Of a stretch of DNA of 64,000 nucleotides, positions 23,253-29,130 are shown in pieces (the stretch's first letter is position 1; each line of letters starts with the position of its first letter). The notes under the pieces were generated by a model. It had not been told where the DNA came from. It saw only the letters and a program-made list of their open reading frames with translations, and did not search any database. The stretch is from Marinosulfonomonas sp. (GTDB taxonomy: Bacteria; Pseudomonadota; Alphaproteobacteria; Rhodobacterales; Rhodobacteraceae): the NCBI GenBank assembly GCA_026984915.1, contig JALSRG010000113.1, positions 1 through 64,000 on the forward strand, written 5' to 3'. Both the position numbers and the translations under genes were made by a program.

Positions 23253-24326
23253 TCAGTTTAGCAATATAGACAAGTATTCCGGCTTGAGGACGACCCACAT
23301 TTTTTCTGTGCCGATTTCGTCGGCACGGATACTATCCAGCGTGATAGTCAAAGATTGGCCCTTACTTGATCTAGCCTCAAAGGTGGTCGAACTACCTTTG
23401 AAAATTCGCTGGTCGATATTCAACTCAAATGCCAGAGAAGACTCGGGTTTGTTGCTATAACAAGTAATATTCTCGGGGCGGATTACAGCGCCAACTTTCT
23501 GGCCTGGTGTTGGAGAACCTTTCCGACAATCGCCCCGCAGTTCAGTGCCAAACCAATCTAGAACCACTTGCTTTCCGTCGATGCCTTTTACGCCGCATTC
23601 AAGCATATTTGTCTCGCCGATAAATTCAGCAACAAATCGGCTTTCCGGATGACTATACAAATCCTTGGGTGATCCGGCTTGCTCAATCCGGCCTTTGTTC
23701 ATAACCAGCACTCTATCTGACATTGTCAGAGCTTCTTCTTGGTCATGGGTCACAAAAATAAAGGTCTTTCCGGTGCGTTTCTGAATTGATTTCAGTTCAA
23801 TCTGAACCTGTTTGCGCAGCTTGGCGTCAAGCGCCCCAAGCGGTTCGTCCAGTAGCAGTACACTTGGATCTGGGGCCAAAGCACGTGCCAGGGCCACACG
23901 TTGCCGTTGACCACCTGAAAGTTCTTCCGGCTTGCGGTCTTTGAAGCCAGTCAACTGCATGAACTCCAAAAGTTCATCCACACGCGCTTCAGTTTCGGCC
24001 TTGGTCTTTCCCTTCAGTTCTAACCCAAAGGCAATATTGCGGCCACAGGTCATATGGGGGAAAAGTGCATAGTCTTGGAAAACCATATTCACGTTTCTGC
24101 GGTTGGGTGGAATATTCGTGACATCATCATCCCCCAAAAACACCTGTCCAGTTGTTGGGGTTTCGAAACCGCCCAATATCCTGAGTGTCGTCGATTTTCC
24201 GCATCCGGATGGGCCAAGAAGTGTCACAAAATCGCCGGGCTGAATCGTCAGGTTTATCTTCTCAACCGCAACGAAAGAGCCGTACTTCTTTGATATGTCA
24301 ACAAGGCTGACGGTGGCATTTTTCAT
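23253..24326 (-). CDS. Spermidine/putrescine-type ABC transporter ATP-binding protein (PotA-like)
   Basis: 357 residues. Walker A LLGPSGCGKSTTLRIL, Q-loop VFQDYALFPHMT, signature LSGGQRQRVALARAL, Walker B SVLLLDEPLGALD, switch His VTHDQEEAL, plus a C-terminal TOBE domain (GAVIRPENI). AAAGGA precedes the ATG. It energises the permeases encoded just upstream. Last gene of the operon; the family transports polyamines or related cationic compounds. The opine dehydrogenase at the head of this operon suggests an opine or amino-acid-derived substrate instead. Confidence 0.93.
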   Translation of the reverse strand: MKNATVSLVDISKKYGSFVAVEKINLTIQPGDFVTLLGPSGCGKSTTLRILGGFETPTTGQVFLGDDDVTNIPPNRRNVNMVFQDYALFPHMTCGRNIAFGLELKGKTKAETEARVDELLEFMQLTGFKDRKPEELSGGQRQRVALARALAPDPSVLLLDEPLGALDAKLRKQVQIELKSIQKRTGKTFIFVTHDQEEALTMSDRVLVMNKGRIEQAGSPKDLYSHPESRFVAEFIGETNMLECGVKGIDGKQVVLDWFGTELRGDCRKGSPTPGQKVGAVIRPENITCYSNKPESSLAFELNIDQRIFKGSSTTFEARSSKGQSLTITLDSIRADEIGTEKMWVVLKPEYLSILLN

Positions 24327-24340
24327 TTTGGGTTATTCCT

Positions 24341-25114
24341 TTATTTCCGCCGCATGAGGCGTTCGGCTGCCAAGCCCATCACCGCGGTAATCACGAGGAC
24401 AACAGATGATATTGCATTAATCTCTGGCGACATACCGGTTCTGAGTTGTGAGAAGATGTAGACTGGTAACGTTGGTTCATACCCACCCAAAAAGAAAGAT
24501 CGAACGAAGTCATCGAAACTCGTGAGCATACAAAAGATTCCTGCACCGACCAAGGCTGGCGTCAGGTAAGGTAATGTAATTCTAAAAAACGAGATTACAT
24601 TGTCCGCGCCCAGATCTTGCGCTGCTTCAACATGGCTCATGGGTTGCGAGTTTAGCCGAGCCATGCCAACCAGTGTCACAAATGGTACATTGTGAACTGT
24701 GTGGCCCAGTATCACGGCCGTCATTCCCGGCTCAATTCCTAGTGTTTGCGAATAGATCCGCAGAGCAATGGCTGAAATGATGCCGGGCAGAACCGCGGGT
24801 AAAGTGATCAGCGCAAAGACGATTATCTTGCCCTTGAATTTGGCCTGGCTCAGTAACATGGCCGCCCAGGTCCCAATTATTATTGCTAACACTGTCGACG
24901 AAATTGCAATGGTGAACGAGTAGGCAAAAACCGACATTAGTTCGAGGTCCTGGATAACAACCTTGTACCAATGCAGTGTCAAAGATTTTATCGGGAAGCC
25001 GATGAACTTGGAGTCTTTGAAGCCCATTAAGACCATCAGTGACAAAGGAATGAATAGATACAGCACGAAGGCCCAGTAGACCATTTGCATGATAAGGCGG
25101 GTATGGCGGGTCAC
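24341..25114 (-). CDS. ABC transporter permease (PotC-like)
   Basis: 257 residues with six hydrophobic segments and the ATPase-contact EAA loop (HVEAAQDLGADNVISFFRITLPYLTPAL). I start it at GTG 25114, which shares one base with the stop of the preceding permease gene and has AAGGA about 8 bases upstream. A longer in-frame reading to 25219 lies inside that gene. Pairs with the PotB-like subunit to form the membrane channel. Confidence 0.9.
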   Translation of the reverse strand: MTRHTRLIMQMVYWAFVLYLFIPLSLMVLMGFKDSKFIGFPIKSLTLHWYKVVIQDLELMSVFAYSFTIAISSTVLAIIIGTWAAMLLSQAKFKGKIIVFALITLPAVLPGIISAIALRIYSQTLGIEPGMTAVILGHTVHNVPFVTLVGMARLNSQPMSHVEAAQDLGADNVISFFRITLPYLTPALVGAGIFCMLTSFDDFVRSFFLGGYEPTLPVYIFSQLRTGMSPEINAISSVVLVITAVMGLAAERLMRRK

Positions 25115-26070
25115 TAGAGATATCCTTTCCCGCGGCGCCCCATAATTTTGAGGAATACTGCTGCAAGTGTCAGTGTTGTGATCAACATGATGCTCGAGAA
25201 GGCCGCCCCGGTAGGCCACCGATCAGCGGCAACGTTGAAGGTGTTGGCTATAGATTCTGCGAACATGGTGCTGCTCGGCCCCCCCAAGATAACAGGCGTT
25301 GCATAGAAACCAGTCGCGATCAGAAAGACCAGAACACAACCTGAGGCTATCCCGTCTTTGGACAGGGGAAGTGTTATCCGCCAAAAGCGTCTCCAGGGGC
25401 CAGCGCCAAGGTCGGCGGCAGCCTCATTCATATTCGTCGGTATTTTTTCCAGCGCTGAATAGAGAGGCAAAAGCATATAGAGGGAAACAAGGTACACGAT
25501 GCCGATGCCTAGTGAAAAACTGGTATACATAAATGGGATTGGCCGGTCGATTATACCAAGGAATTTCAGGGCGATATTGATTGCACCATTATTCCCTAAT
25601 AGAATCATGATCGCATAGGTACGAATAATTTCGCCCACCCAGAACGGAATCAACACAAGCAACAAGAACAGCATCTGCCGGCTCTTTGGAACATGGCGGG
25701 CCAGGAAGTAGGCAACCGGATAAACAAGGACCAATGTGGCAAAGGTCAATATACCTGAAAAAATCAGGGTTCGGAAAAATGGGATATAGTATACCGGTGT
25801 GACAAAAAACTCTCGCCAAGCCGCAATTGTGTAAGTGGCTTCTCGGCCTTTACTTAGCGGATATGCGTCATAAAAACTTATATCCAGCATCTTGAAGAGC
25901 GGCCCCAGATTGGCGACTATTGCCCAGATGATCGGTACCGCTGCCAGCAAAACGAGGCGGCGTTTTTTGGTTCCTAGAAGCGAAGCAGAAACGGATTGGT
26001 AGACTTTGCTTGTAGCAAGCCAACTCCAAAAGCTTCTGGAGCCGGTTGAATATTCTTCTTGGGGAGGCAT
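25114..26070 (-). CDS. ABC transporter permease (PotB-like)
   Basis: 318 residues. A hydrophilic N-terminus of about 35 residues precedes six membrane segments (LVLLAAVPIIWAIVANLG first), and the EAA loop NMNEAAADLGAGPWRRFWRITLPLSKDGI. The 70-base gap to the substrate-binding gene upstream and the 1-base overlap downstream indicate one transcript. Confidence 0.9.
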   Translation of the reverse strand: MPPQEEYSTGSRSFWSWLATSKVYQSVSASLLGTKKRRLVLLAAVPIIWAIVANLGPLFKMLDISFYDAYPLSKGREATYTIAAWREFFVTPVYYIPFFRTLIFSGILTFATLVLVYPVAYFLARHVPKSRQMLFLLLVLIPFWVGEIIRTYAIMILLGNNGAINIALKFLGIIDRPIPFMYTSFSLGIGIVYLVSLYMLLPLYSALEKIPTNMNEAAADLGAGPWRRFWRITLPLSKDGIASGCVLVFLIATGFYATPVILGGPSSTMFAESIANTFNVAADRWPTGAAFSSIMLITTLTLAAVFLKIMGRRGKGYL

Positions 26071-26139: not shown

Positions 26140-27240
26140 TTAGGCTGCTTTGATTTCTTCGACGGCTGGGTCAACAAGATCGTATTTAAGCTTATTGTTG
26201 TCAGCACGGAAGAATTGCAGGGCATCCAACTCTTCCTGAGTGAACGAAGCTGCTGCCTTTTCAATATCTGACAGGAATTCCGCAGACCCTTCAAATGTCG
26301 AAATAAAGCCCGATGCTTTAGTCATGTTGGCACCAATTTCCGGATGTGCCAAAAGGGCGTCCAGAAGAATGTAAGCATTATCCGCATTTGGACCATTGTT
26401 CACAACGTTGTAGTTATAAACAAAACCATAGGATCCTTCTTTCGGAATCGTCATTGCAGCCGGAAAACCATCCATGATCAGTTTGGATACAGGTCCCGAC
26501 CAGGCATGGCCAACAACAATATCCTGGTTGATCAGCATCTGCTGGAACTCAGCGCCAGCGTCATAGTACTTGCGCACCCGAGGTTTCCTCTCAATCAGGA
26601 AAGCTTTGGCTGCTGCAACTGCTTCAGCAGCTTTCGCTTCATCATAGCCGATCATGTTGCCGTCATAACCCAGGTACAGCATTACAATCGACATTATGTC
26701 TTGGAGAATATAGGCGGTTTGACCGGCATATTTTTCACCAAACAGAATGTCCCAGCTGCGGGCTTCCTCAGGCGTAACGATGTCTGTATTATAGGCCATT
26801 ACCTCAGCGCCAGCCAAGATTGGTACGCCCCATTTCTTGCCGTCGACGATGGTCCAATCAGCTTCGGAATATACTTTGTTGACGCGAGACCAATTCGACA
26901 AACGGCCAATGTCCAATGGTGCGATCAGTTCGGAATCGATAAACTGGCGGAAACGGTGGCCCGCGATAGTCACGATATCTGCAGTTGGCTGGCCAGCTTC
27001 GGCAGCCAGCAGGTTGAATTCCTTGCCTTGATCATCAACCAACCGCTCGCGGATTTGAATGCCTGTATCCTTTTGAAACTCTTCCTTGAAGGAATCAGGC
27101 AGGAAGTTCGCGTAGGTCCAAACATTGACCGTCCCGGATGCCGCATAGGCTGGCGAAAAGATTGCCGGGGCTGCCAGCGCAGTTGTTGCCGCAACACCGG
27201 TTTTCAGGATCTGTCGTCTTGATATTTTTGAGTTTAGCAT
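26140..27240 (-). CDS. ABC transporter periplasmic substrate-binding protein (PotD-like)
   Basis: 366 residues. Tat-type signal peptide: ISRRQILKTG, then a hydrophobic stretch ending in AYA before mature SGTVNVWTYANF. The PotD fold is seen in VNVWTYANFLPDSF and later GVPILAGAEVMAYNTDIV. GGAGG 5 bases before the ATG at 27240 fixes the start; an upstream ATG at 27267 is less likely. The ligand is not defined; polyamine family by fold, opine-like by context. Confidence 0.88.
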   Translation of the reverse strand: MLNSKISRRQILKTGVAATTALAAPAIFSPAYAASGTVNVWTYANFLPDSFKEEFQKDTGIQIRERLVDDQGKEFNLLAAEAGQPTADIVTIAGHRFRQFIDSELIAPLDIGRLSNWSRVNKVYSEADWTIVDGKKWGVPILAGAEVMAYNTDIVTPEEARSWDILFGEKYAGQTAYILQDIMSIVMLYLGYDGNMIGYDEAKAAEAVAAAKAFLIERKPRVRKYYDAGAEFQQMLINQDIVVGHAWSGPVSKLIMDGFPAAMTIPKEGSYGFVYNYNVVNNGPNADNAYILLDALLAHPEIGANMTKASGFISTFEGSAEFLSDIEKAAASFTQEELDALQFFRADNNKLKYDLVDPAVEEIKAA

Positions 27241-27338
27241 AGTTTCCTCCATGTTGTAGTGGTTCATAAATTGCTCTTGGTTGTCGATCTGCCAGTTAAT
27301 TGTGGATTTGGTTCTTTGACCTGCCAGCTTGATCGGGA

Positions 27339-28403
27339 TTATCCTCCTATTAGTTTCAACAAACTCGAATCTGAATCTACAGTTGTTTTCAGCTCGTTCA
27401 TAAGCTCATTCATCGCAATGAAGTCACGTCCAATCAATGCGCTGAAAATATCGACACCGGCTTGATGAAGTGGAACCGGAACTCCTGAAACCTTACCAAG
27501 CCAAATCGTCGGCACCAGACCATATGGTACATCCTCAAGGATGTAACGTGTTTCCAGAGTGGTGGGACCGCACCCCCGCATGCCCTTTTCAAGCATCGCC
27601 TTACTCATTTCGGCCACTGATCCTGACGGCACTCCAAATGATCGGCTGAAATGTTCAAAAATATTCCGGGTTCGCACATTCAGAGCACTGGCAACCGTCA
27701 GACGTTCCTGGTCAAGTTTCTCCAGCAAACGCCCTACAGCGGGTGTTATATTCTCGGCCTGTATCCAAGTCTCCCCTTTCTCAATTCGGGTCAGATTGCA
27801 CAAGGCAATTCCCAAGTGGTTTTGTGGATTTAGATTGCCAAGGGCGACGGCCAAAATACCGTCGCACAAGGTGAACCGGTCCCCGAATAACCGGCGACAG
27901 ATGTCTAGCCCCTGTGCTTTCTTTTTGTCCGGAAGAACCGCCATTTCAATATTGGTCCGAATAGTCCCGATCTCGATTTTTGAAGGCGATGCCTTTCGAC
28001 CACTTAGGATTGTCGTACTGAGTGCAACAATCATTGGCTCAACATTGACGGTTTCCAGCTTCGACTGGAGGTATTGCGCGGCAAATGGCACATGCGATGA
28101 AATGATTACGCAATGCGCGCTGCGAAGGAATGGAGAGAGTTGCTCAACTACATTCTTGAATCCATATGCCGGGACAGCGATAACAATGATATCGCATTGG
28201 CGAACCAGTTCTTTGGCAGAATCGACCAACGACGGAATAAATTCATATTCAACGGCCCCGGTCGAAACAACTCGTGCATCAGGATCAGCCTGATGCTGTA
28301 GCGACCTGTTTGGCGACCAAAGCAAGACATTCTCGCCATTGCCGGACAGAAGCGCCGCCAGACCCAGACCGATCGGCCCGGTCCCTATGATTCCAATATT
28401 CAT
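27339..28403 (-). CDS. NAD/NADP octopine/nopaline dehydrogenase family protein
   Basis: 354 residues. N-terminal Rossmann motif IGIIGTGPIGLGLAALL, then a central NAD-domain pattern (CDIIVIAVPAYGFKNVV), NPQNHLGIALCNLTRIEKG (the region with the catalytic His of opine dehydrogenases) and a helical C-terminal domain (MLEKGMRGCGPTTLETRYILEDVPYGLVP). The family joins or splits amino acids and 2-oxo acids through a secondary amine. First gene of the operon with the ABC transporter, so a catabolic role (uptake, then oxidative cleavage) is inferred. Ribosome site weak. Confidence 0.82.
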   Translation of the reverse strand: MNIGIIGTGPIGLGLAALLSGNGENVLLWSPNRSLQHQADPDARVVSTGAVEYEFIPSLVDSAKELVRQCDIIVIAVPAYGFKNVVEQLSPFLRSAHCVIISSHVPFAAQYLQSKLETVNVEPMIVALSTTILSGRKASPSKIEIGTIRTNIEMAVLPDKKKAQGLDICRRLFGDRFTLCDGILAVALGNLNPQNHLGIALCNLTRIEKGETWIQAENITPAVGRLLEKLDQERLTVASALNVRTRNIFEHFSRSFGVPSGSVAEMSKAMLEKGMRGCGPTTLETRYILEDVPYGLVPTIWLGKVSGVPVPLHQAGVDIFSALIGRDFIAMNELMNELKTTVDSDSSLLKLIGG

Positions 28404-28510
28404 ATCATTTTCAATTCAGGAAGCGAGCAGCAGTGGAGGATGAAGTTCATTCCAAGTGTCTTTATGACCTCTATTGAGAGAAGCTGTTTATCAAGAATGA
28501 TTTCGCGCCG

Positions 28511-28553
28511 TGACATGTTAGAAACACTAGCTTAGCGTAAATTAACATGTCAA
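28511..28553 (-). promoter_or_regulatory. Operon promoter with paired palindromic operators
   Basis: TGACATGTTA (28511-28520) and TAACATGTCA (28543-28552) are exact inverted copies, and each contains the palindrome ACATGT. Their centres are 32 bases apart, about three helical turns. On the minus strand a perfect -35 TTGACA (28548-28553) overlaps the upstream copy; the -10 candidate TAGTGT (28524-28529) is 18 bases on. The other copy covers the expected transcription start. This is the layout of a repressor that blocks the promoter from two sites. No regulator gene lies nearby. Confidence 0.65.
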
Positions 28554-29130
28554 GCATTGTGAGGTCGTGTCGTGAGTTTTGGGAAGCTTGAAGCTGGCGT
28601 ACTCTTCGGGTGAATTTCAACCGCCAATAATGACGGTTTGAACCATCATGGGGTTTTCATCATGACAGAGAATGCAGCAATATTGGCGTGTCAAAGCATA
28701 TGCAGGATGAGTTGGCGAAAGATAATTGAGATATGATTCAGGCTAGGTAGGCGTCGCCAAGCTTAAGGCGCTTACCAACAAAAGTGGCCGTGATATAGGC
28801 GGAGGCCGATTGCTTGAAACAGGTTGAAGATAAACGCTGTATCTTCACATCCTTGCCACACAACAACCAAAAGCAGAGGCTGATTTTCAATTGACGATGC
28901 CGCCAGCAAGCTGACCCATATAGCCGTCTGTAATTTTGGCAAGCCGGGCCGCGGCGTCAGAGAATGGGTTGTCACCCGCAACCAATTCGCGTTTCTAAAC
29001 CCGGACGGTTCAATAGATGACCCGCTGTAAGCGAATGGGCCAAGCCCCATACACAGAATTTCGGACACCTCCCAAACCCCCGAGGCGGTTCAGTCTGGCG
29101 TGCCTGCCTTGTTTCAAAGGGATTGGCCCC
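28554..29130. other. Long stretch without a supportable gene
   Basis: About 580 bases. Short frames occur on both strands (minus 28772-29068; plus from 29017), but none has a recognisable product or a good start. The plus-strand segment around 28650-28730 resembles the leader and first codons of a transposase gene (ATGACAGAGAATGCA...) but soon meets stops. It is probably decayed mobile DNA, as near 18 kb and 23 kb; I cannot name the element. Confidence 0.45.

Follow-up and report, generated by a model that had tools for sequence, protein, structure and literature searches.

The window, the whole 64,000-nucleotide stretch analysed here, carries on its minus strand a five-gene operon that opens with a gene for an octopine/nopaline-type dehydrogenase (ODH) and continues with genes for an extracellular solute-binding protein (SBP), two ABC permeases and an ABC ATPase (Table 1). 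All five genes are open in the window's genome, and the set probably serves the import and processing of an opine-like compound. The GC content of the operon is 48.8%, against 54.5% for the window. Upstream of the ODH gene lie two 10-bp sites that are exact reverse complements of each other; in plus-strand order, TGACATGTTA occupies 28511-28520 and TAACATGTCA 28543-28552. The original prediction, made from the letters of the DNA, had described such an inverted pair with 32 bases from centre to centre, and the coordinates bear out both the pair and the distance. It had also placed one half-site over a perfect -35 element, which is correct: on the minus strand, TTGACA begins one base upstream of half-site 1 and runs into it. 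The further claim, that the other half-site covers the transcription start, fits a start predicted near 28517, inside half-site 2, because the best -10 element is the TAGTGT at 28529-28524. This -10 is weak, and the promoter at 28553-28524 is absent from the list returned by a generic promoter scan of the window.

Table 1. Coordinates in the window of the operator pair, its promoter and the downstream operon.
Feature	Coordinates	Strand	Remarks
Operator half-site 1 (TGACATGTTA read on minus strand)	28543..28552	-	Overlaps -35; 9/10 identical to G648 ODH site
Operator half-site 2 (TAACATGTCA read on minus strand)	28511..28520	-	Over inferred transcription start
-35 element TTGACA	28548..28553	-	Same TTGACA in all three operators compared
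Possible -10 TAGTGT	28524..28529	-	18-bp spacer; weak, 3/6 consensus match
Octopine/nopaline-type dehydrogenase (ODH), operon's first gene	27339..28403	-	PF02317, 8.9e-34
Extracellular solute-binding protein, spermidine/putrescine-like	26140..27267	-	
ABC permease 1	25114..26070	-	
ABC permease 2	24341..25219	-	
ABC ATPase	23253..24326	-	

Taken from the window alone, the pair is only modestly significant, since two copies of TNACATGTNA (0.48 expected) are reached in 9 of 100 shuffles. Inverted repeats of 10 bp lying 10-60 bp apart are not rare, with 7 in the window vs a mean of 4.9 in 100 shuffles, and the single one with near-palindromic halves compares with 0.07 expected (any in 7 of 100 shuffles). 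The wider counts were obtained from the draft genome (3.16 Mb, 127 contigs, 96.6% complete). The genome-wide scan that the original prediction proposed as a check finds TGACATGTTA at the two window sites and nowhere else, and the pair is unique in the draft; the many random copies in coding DNA that it had named as a counterargument are seen neither for the 10-mer nor for the pair. The looser TNACATGTNA has 13 sites in this genome vs 7 for a reversed control, and the eight matches viewed among these 13 are all solitary. Of 394 genomes of the family, 2 have a pair with an 18-26 bp gap; the reversed control pattern occurs at five places in one genome.

One scan of the species-genome collection found a single close relative, L034 of G648, a Hyphomicrobiales MAG from a different order. 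G648 has the same five-gene operon (ODH 60%, SBP 82%, permeases 78% and ATPase 78% identical), and its ODH leader contains TGACATGTCA at 282 and again at 314, exactly 32 bp apart. Its genome holds 15 TNACATGTNA sites vs 7 for the reversed control, four of which form two 32-bp pairs on one 19-kb contig (contig 5). The second pair, at 9237-9278 of contig 5, sits between a divergent class-V aminotransferase gene and a gene for a GntR/FCD regulator, 27 bp upstream of the latter. In ungapped comparison with the G648 ODH leader, the window sequence is identical at 9/10 and 9/10 positions of the half-sites, 10/22 of the spacer, 11/60 of the 60 bp upstream and 6/27 of the 27 bp downstream; with the G648 GntR leader, the figures are 9/10 and 10/10, 7/22, 22/60 and 6/27. 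Half-site 2 of the window thus matches the two second half-sites of G648 at 9/10 and 10/10. Since identity in the spacer and flanks falls far below that in the half-sites, only the half-sites and the distance between them are conserved. TTGACA overlaps site 1 in all three operators (window ODH, G648 ODH and G648 GntR), and the G648 ODH promoter has TACTGT as the -10 counterpart at a spacing equal to that of the window promoter. Among the 61 genomes searched around G648, the pair is found in G648 itself only. The proposal of an operator pair spaced to present two dimers on one DNA face is in keeping with the recurrence of the 32-bp spacing at both the ODH operon and the GntR/FCD gene, and, judged from these sequences, the window pair very probably acts as a genuine on/off switch.

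By reading, the ORFs listed for contig 5 (at least 100 aa, or 150 aa in one listing) include no repressor-type gene other than the GntR gene. Its product (L087:9306-10199) combines a GntR HTH domain (PF00392) with an FCD domain (PF07729), so that in the relative a gene of this architecture has a like operator of its own. The protein runs some 70-80 residues past the FCD domain, and the next gene, which is URO-D/MtaA-like, begins before this one ends. Because the same sites with the same 32-bp spacing precede both the operon and the GntR gene of G648, the window pair would most likely be the double operator of an FCD-type GntR repressor that is predicted to be autoregulated in G648.

Against this reading, the core AC-AT-GT, found in 6/6 half-sites compared, departs from the GT-N-AC order of the GntR operator consensus NyGT-Nx-ACNy, for which the same paper names exceptions, BioR and NanR among them (PMC4494728, in excerpt). 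We therefore describe the sites as working like GntR operators and not as consensus GntR boxes. For comparison we used Atu1419 of Agrobacterium fabrum, a member of the GntR superfamily (FCD/VanR group) with a known structure; its Arg45 recognizes the G of GT (PMC7797058, in excerpt). When the G648 regulator is aligned with Atu1419, Ser44-Arg45-Thr46 is replaced by Gly-Lys-Ala, with Lys at the position of the conserved Arg. The G-K-A helix would go with the AC-AT-GT core, where GT-N-AC is usual.

Homologues of the G648 regulator agree in part with such a match. Eighteen were compared (30-42% identity), eight from the 26 plasmid records and ten from elsewhere; not included were H42 and H46, which look like near-duplicates judging by their organism and score, nor H47, H52 and 14 further plasmid records. 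A GKAP helix is common to 3/18. With at most one mismatch, TRACATGTYA lies upstream of 2/3 GKAP homologues vs 0/15 of those without GKAP; with at most two, the numbers are 3/3 and 8/15, and these counts are small and post hoc. Only the stricter cut separates the two groups, because 8/15 non-GKAP homologues have a site at two mismatches. Pairs 20-36 bp apart, with two mismatches allowed, precede 3/18 homologues (L112, 22 bp; L117, 24 bp; L125, 34 bp), against 0.09 expected from single-base shuffles of all 19 leaders including that of G648, a comparison that is likewise post hoc and small in numbers. ACATGT occurs upstream of 5/18, where it is not the commonest palindromic hexamer. A further reading, possible but not favored, is that FCD/GntR repressors with a GKA helix form a subclass that reads the reversed-order palindrome AC-AT-GT in pairs set in helical phase (22 or 32 bp), and that the window pair came in together with the operon, leaving the regulator behind.

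The cognate regulator had been said not to be encoded nearby, and this holds, as none was seen adjoining the operon. No such regulator was found in the window's assembly either, which counts against the GntR reading: the G-K-A recognition helix is present in 0/14 GntR HTH matches of this draft genome (96.6% complete). A GntR gene on contig C6, the best match to the G648 regulator, was rejected as the cognate regulator because of its 33% identity and its standard SRTP helix. The interval between the ODH gene and TerB (28404-29130), about 0.7 kb with no convincing gene and frequent stops in most frames, is possibly decayed sequence. A search there for a regulator remnant gave no significant match to the G648 GntR or its neighbours (best E 0.03, with the ATPase query; 0.074 with the GntR query). 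Of the class-V aminotransferase found alongside the ODH/ABC operon in relatives, this genome has only a broken remnant, on contig C70 (locus L107:9052-9396), with pieces 33-51% identical within a 140-aa frame; it also has more distant members of the family. Since the regulator was not found and its aminotransferase partner is only a remnant, the window operator may be an orphan; alternatively, the regulator gene may fall within the ~3% of the genome that is missing. ODH is absent from 3/3 other genomes of the genus, and this, the remnant and the lower GC of the operon are in line with transfer of the operon and with a regulator that has been lost or is unassembled.

The same observations bear on a first alternative, namely, that the operator is vestigial: the operon would have entered this genome together with its operators, and the regulator and part of the pathway would have been lost, leaving the operon unregulated or constitutive. 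The remnant aminotransferase, the lack of a GKA-type helix among the GntR matches, the ODH-less genus mates and the GC difference all speak for it. However, there is exact symmetry between the half-sites, both of them intact, every one of the five operon genes is open, and at 96.6% completeness in 127 contigs the regulator gene may simply be missing from the assembly. We consider a vestigial operator possible but would not expect it, and it is compatible with the pair having originated as a GntR double operator.

A second, unlikely alternative is that the binder is a MarR-type repressor, as TTGA-CATG-TCAA resembles the TTAA-N4-TTAA given for HpaR sites (PMC7180172, in excerpt). In G082 (L056:1501-1544), two copies of TAACATGTTA with a 34-bp spacing immediately precede an HpaR-family gene (TIGR02337, 132.6 bits, which exceeds the cut-off). 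By eye, this gene is divergent from apparent homoprotocatechuate-pathway genes. The G082 pair in front of an HpaR-type gene, together with the TTAA-N4-TTAA sites, makes a MarR protein an alternative to be taken seriously. However, the G082 spacing is 34 bp vs 32 bp, the ORF listings for the 19-kb G648 contig showed a GntR gene behind the pair and no MarR gene, and the combination of TTAA-N4-TTAA with an adjacent MarR gene was not found, the site reading TTGA-CATG-TYA. Finally, a chance inverted repeat, for which the frequency of such repeats in the window and the shuffles with at least two copies of TNACATGTNA might be cited, is highly improbable given like sites, equally 32 bp apart, in front of the homologous operon in a MAG from another order, a third pair at a regulator gene, and spacers and flanks far less conserved than the half-sites.

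More distant relatives of the ODH, 39-48% identical and found in 25 other genomes of the family or order, retain the five-gene order in 15 of the 20 whose neighbours were retrieved; in these same 15, the ODH gene looks internal, with other genes upstream. The pair is absent within about 1.5 kb of ODH in all 25 and, at an 18-26 bp gap, from all 25 genome-wide. With the pair absent and ODH internal-looking, these relatives are unusable for footprinting. The leaders upstream of ODH in L036, L038, L041 and L044 have another palindrome, of the AACGGAAT...ATCCGTT type, which in these same-family leaders suggests a different regulator. Beside the plasmid ODH relatives (6 of 280 records, one unannotated), some have a LysR or XRE neighbour and others none, and the regulator there differs between lineages.

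If the window pair is a GntR/FCD double operator, one dimer would sit on each 10-bp near-palindrome, TGACATGTYA. Because the two sites lie three helical turns apart on the same face, two dimers or one tetramer could hold both. The bound repressor would cover the -35 element and the transcription start and thereby keep RNA polymerase off. It would be released by a ligand, probably the compound that the transporter imports or one derived from it. In G648, the GntR protein would repress its own gene through the like pair and bring the opine-dehydrogenase/ABC operon under the same control. What we infer from sequence comparison is the binding itself, repression as opposed to activation, the ligand and the choice between dimers and a tetramer. 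To the original prediction, the analysis adds the likely regulator family, a second operator at the gene of that regulator, and the finding that this genome apparently lacks it. An unassigned promoter repeat thereby becomes a testable regulator-operator pair, a regulator is proposed for a conserved opine-dehydrogenase/ABC gene set, and a non-canonical specificity is predicted for an FCD/GntR subclass whose recognition helix is altered correspondingly. If the operator is truly orphaned, it would be a naturally occurring example of a transferred operon in which the control sites have outlasted the controller. Our literature search found no paper that links opine dehydrogenase to GntR and an ABC transporter operon, and none of the papers listed as containing TGACATGTCA looks, from the excerpts available, to concern a bacterial operator.

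Known systems, as described in the available excerpts, resemble the predicted one in different respects. HpaR, of the MarR family, has short palindromes with a 4-bp centre and two sites at an operon promoter, as in the window, but its sites are TTAA-N4-TTAA, lie about 180 bp apart and are bound by another protein family (PMC7180172). DgoR, a FadR-type GntR protein of E. coli, represses through two inverted repeats that overlap the promoter, a likeness by description alone. Atu1419 (PMC7797058) differs from the window and G648 in its palindrome, ATGTATACAT, which has the GT-N-AC order where they have AC-AT-GT, and in its spacing, the two sites being 190 bp apart and looped vs 32 bp. It is nevertheless like the predicted system in having an FCD domain, in binding as a dimer to each 10-bp palindrome, with one tetramer able to hold two, and, like the window pair, in having sites that overlap promoter elements, its own promoter included.
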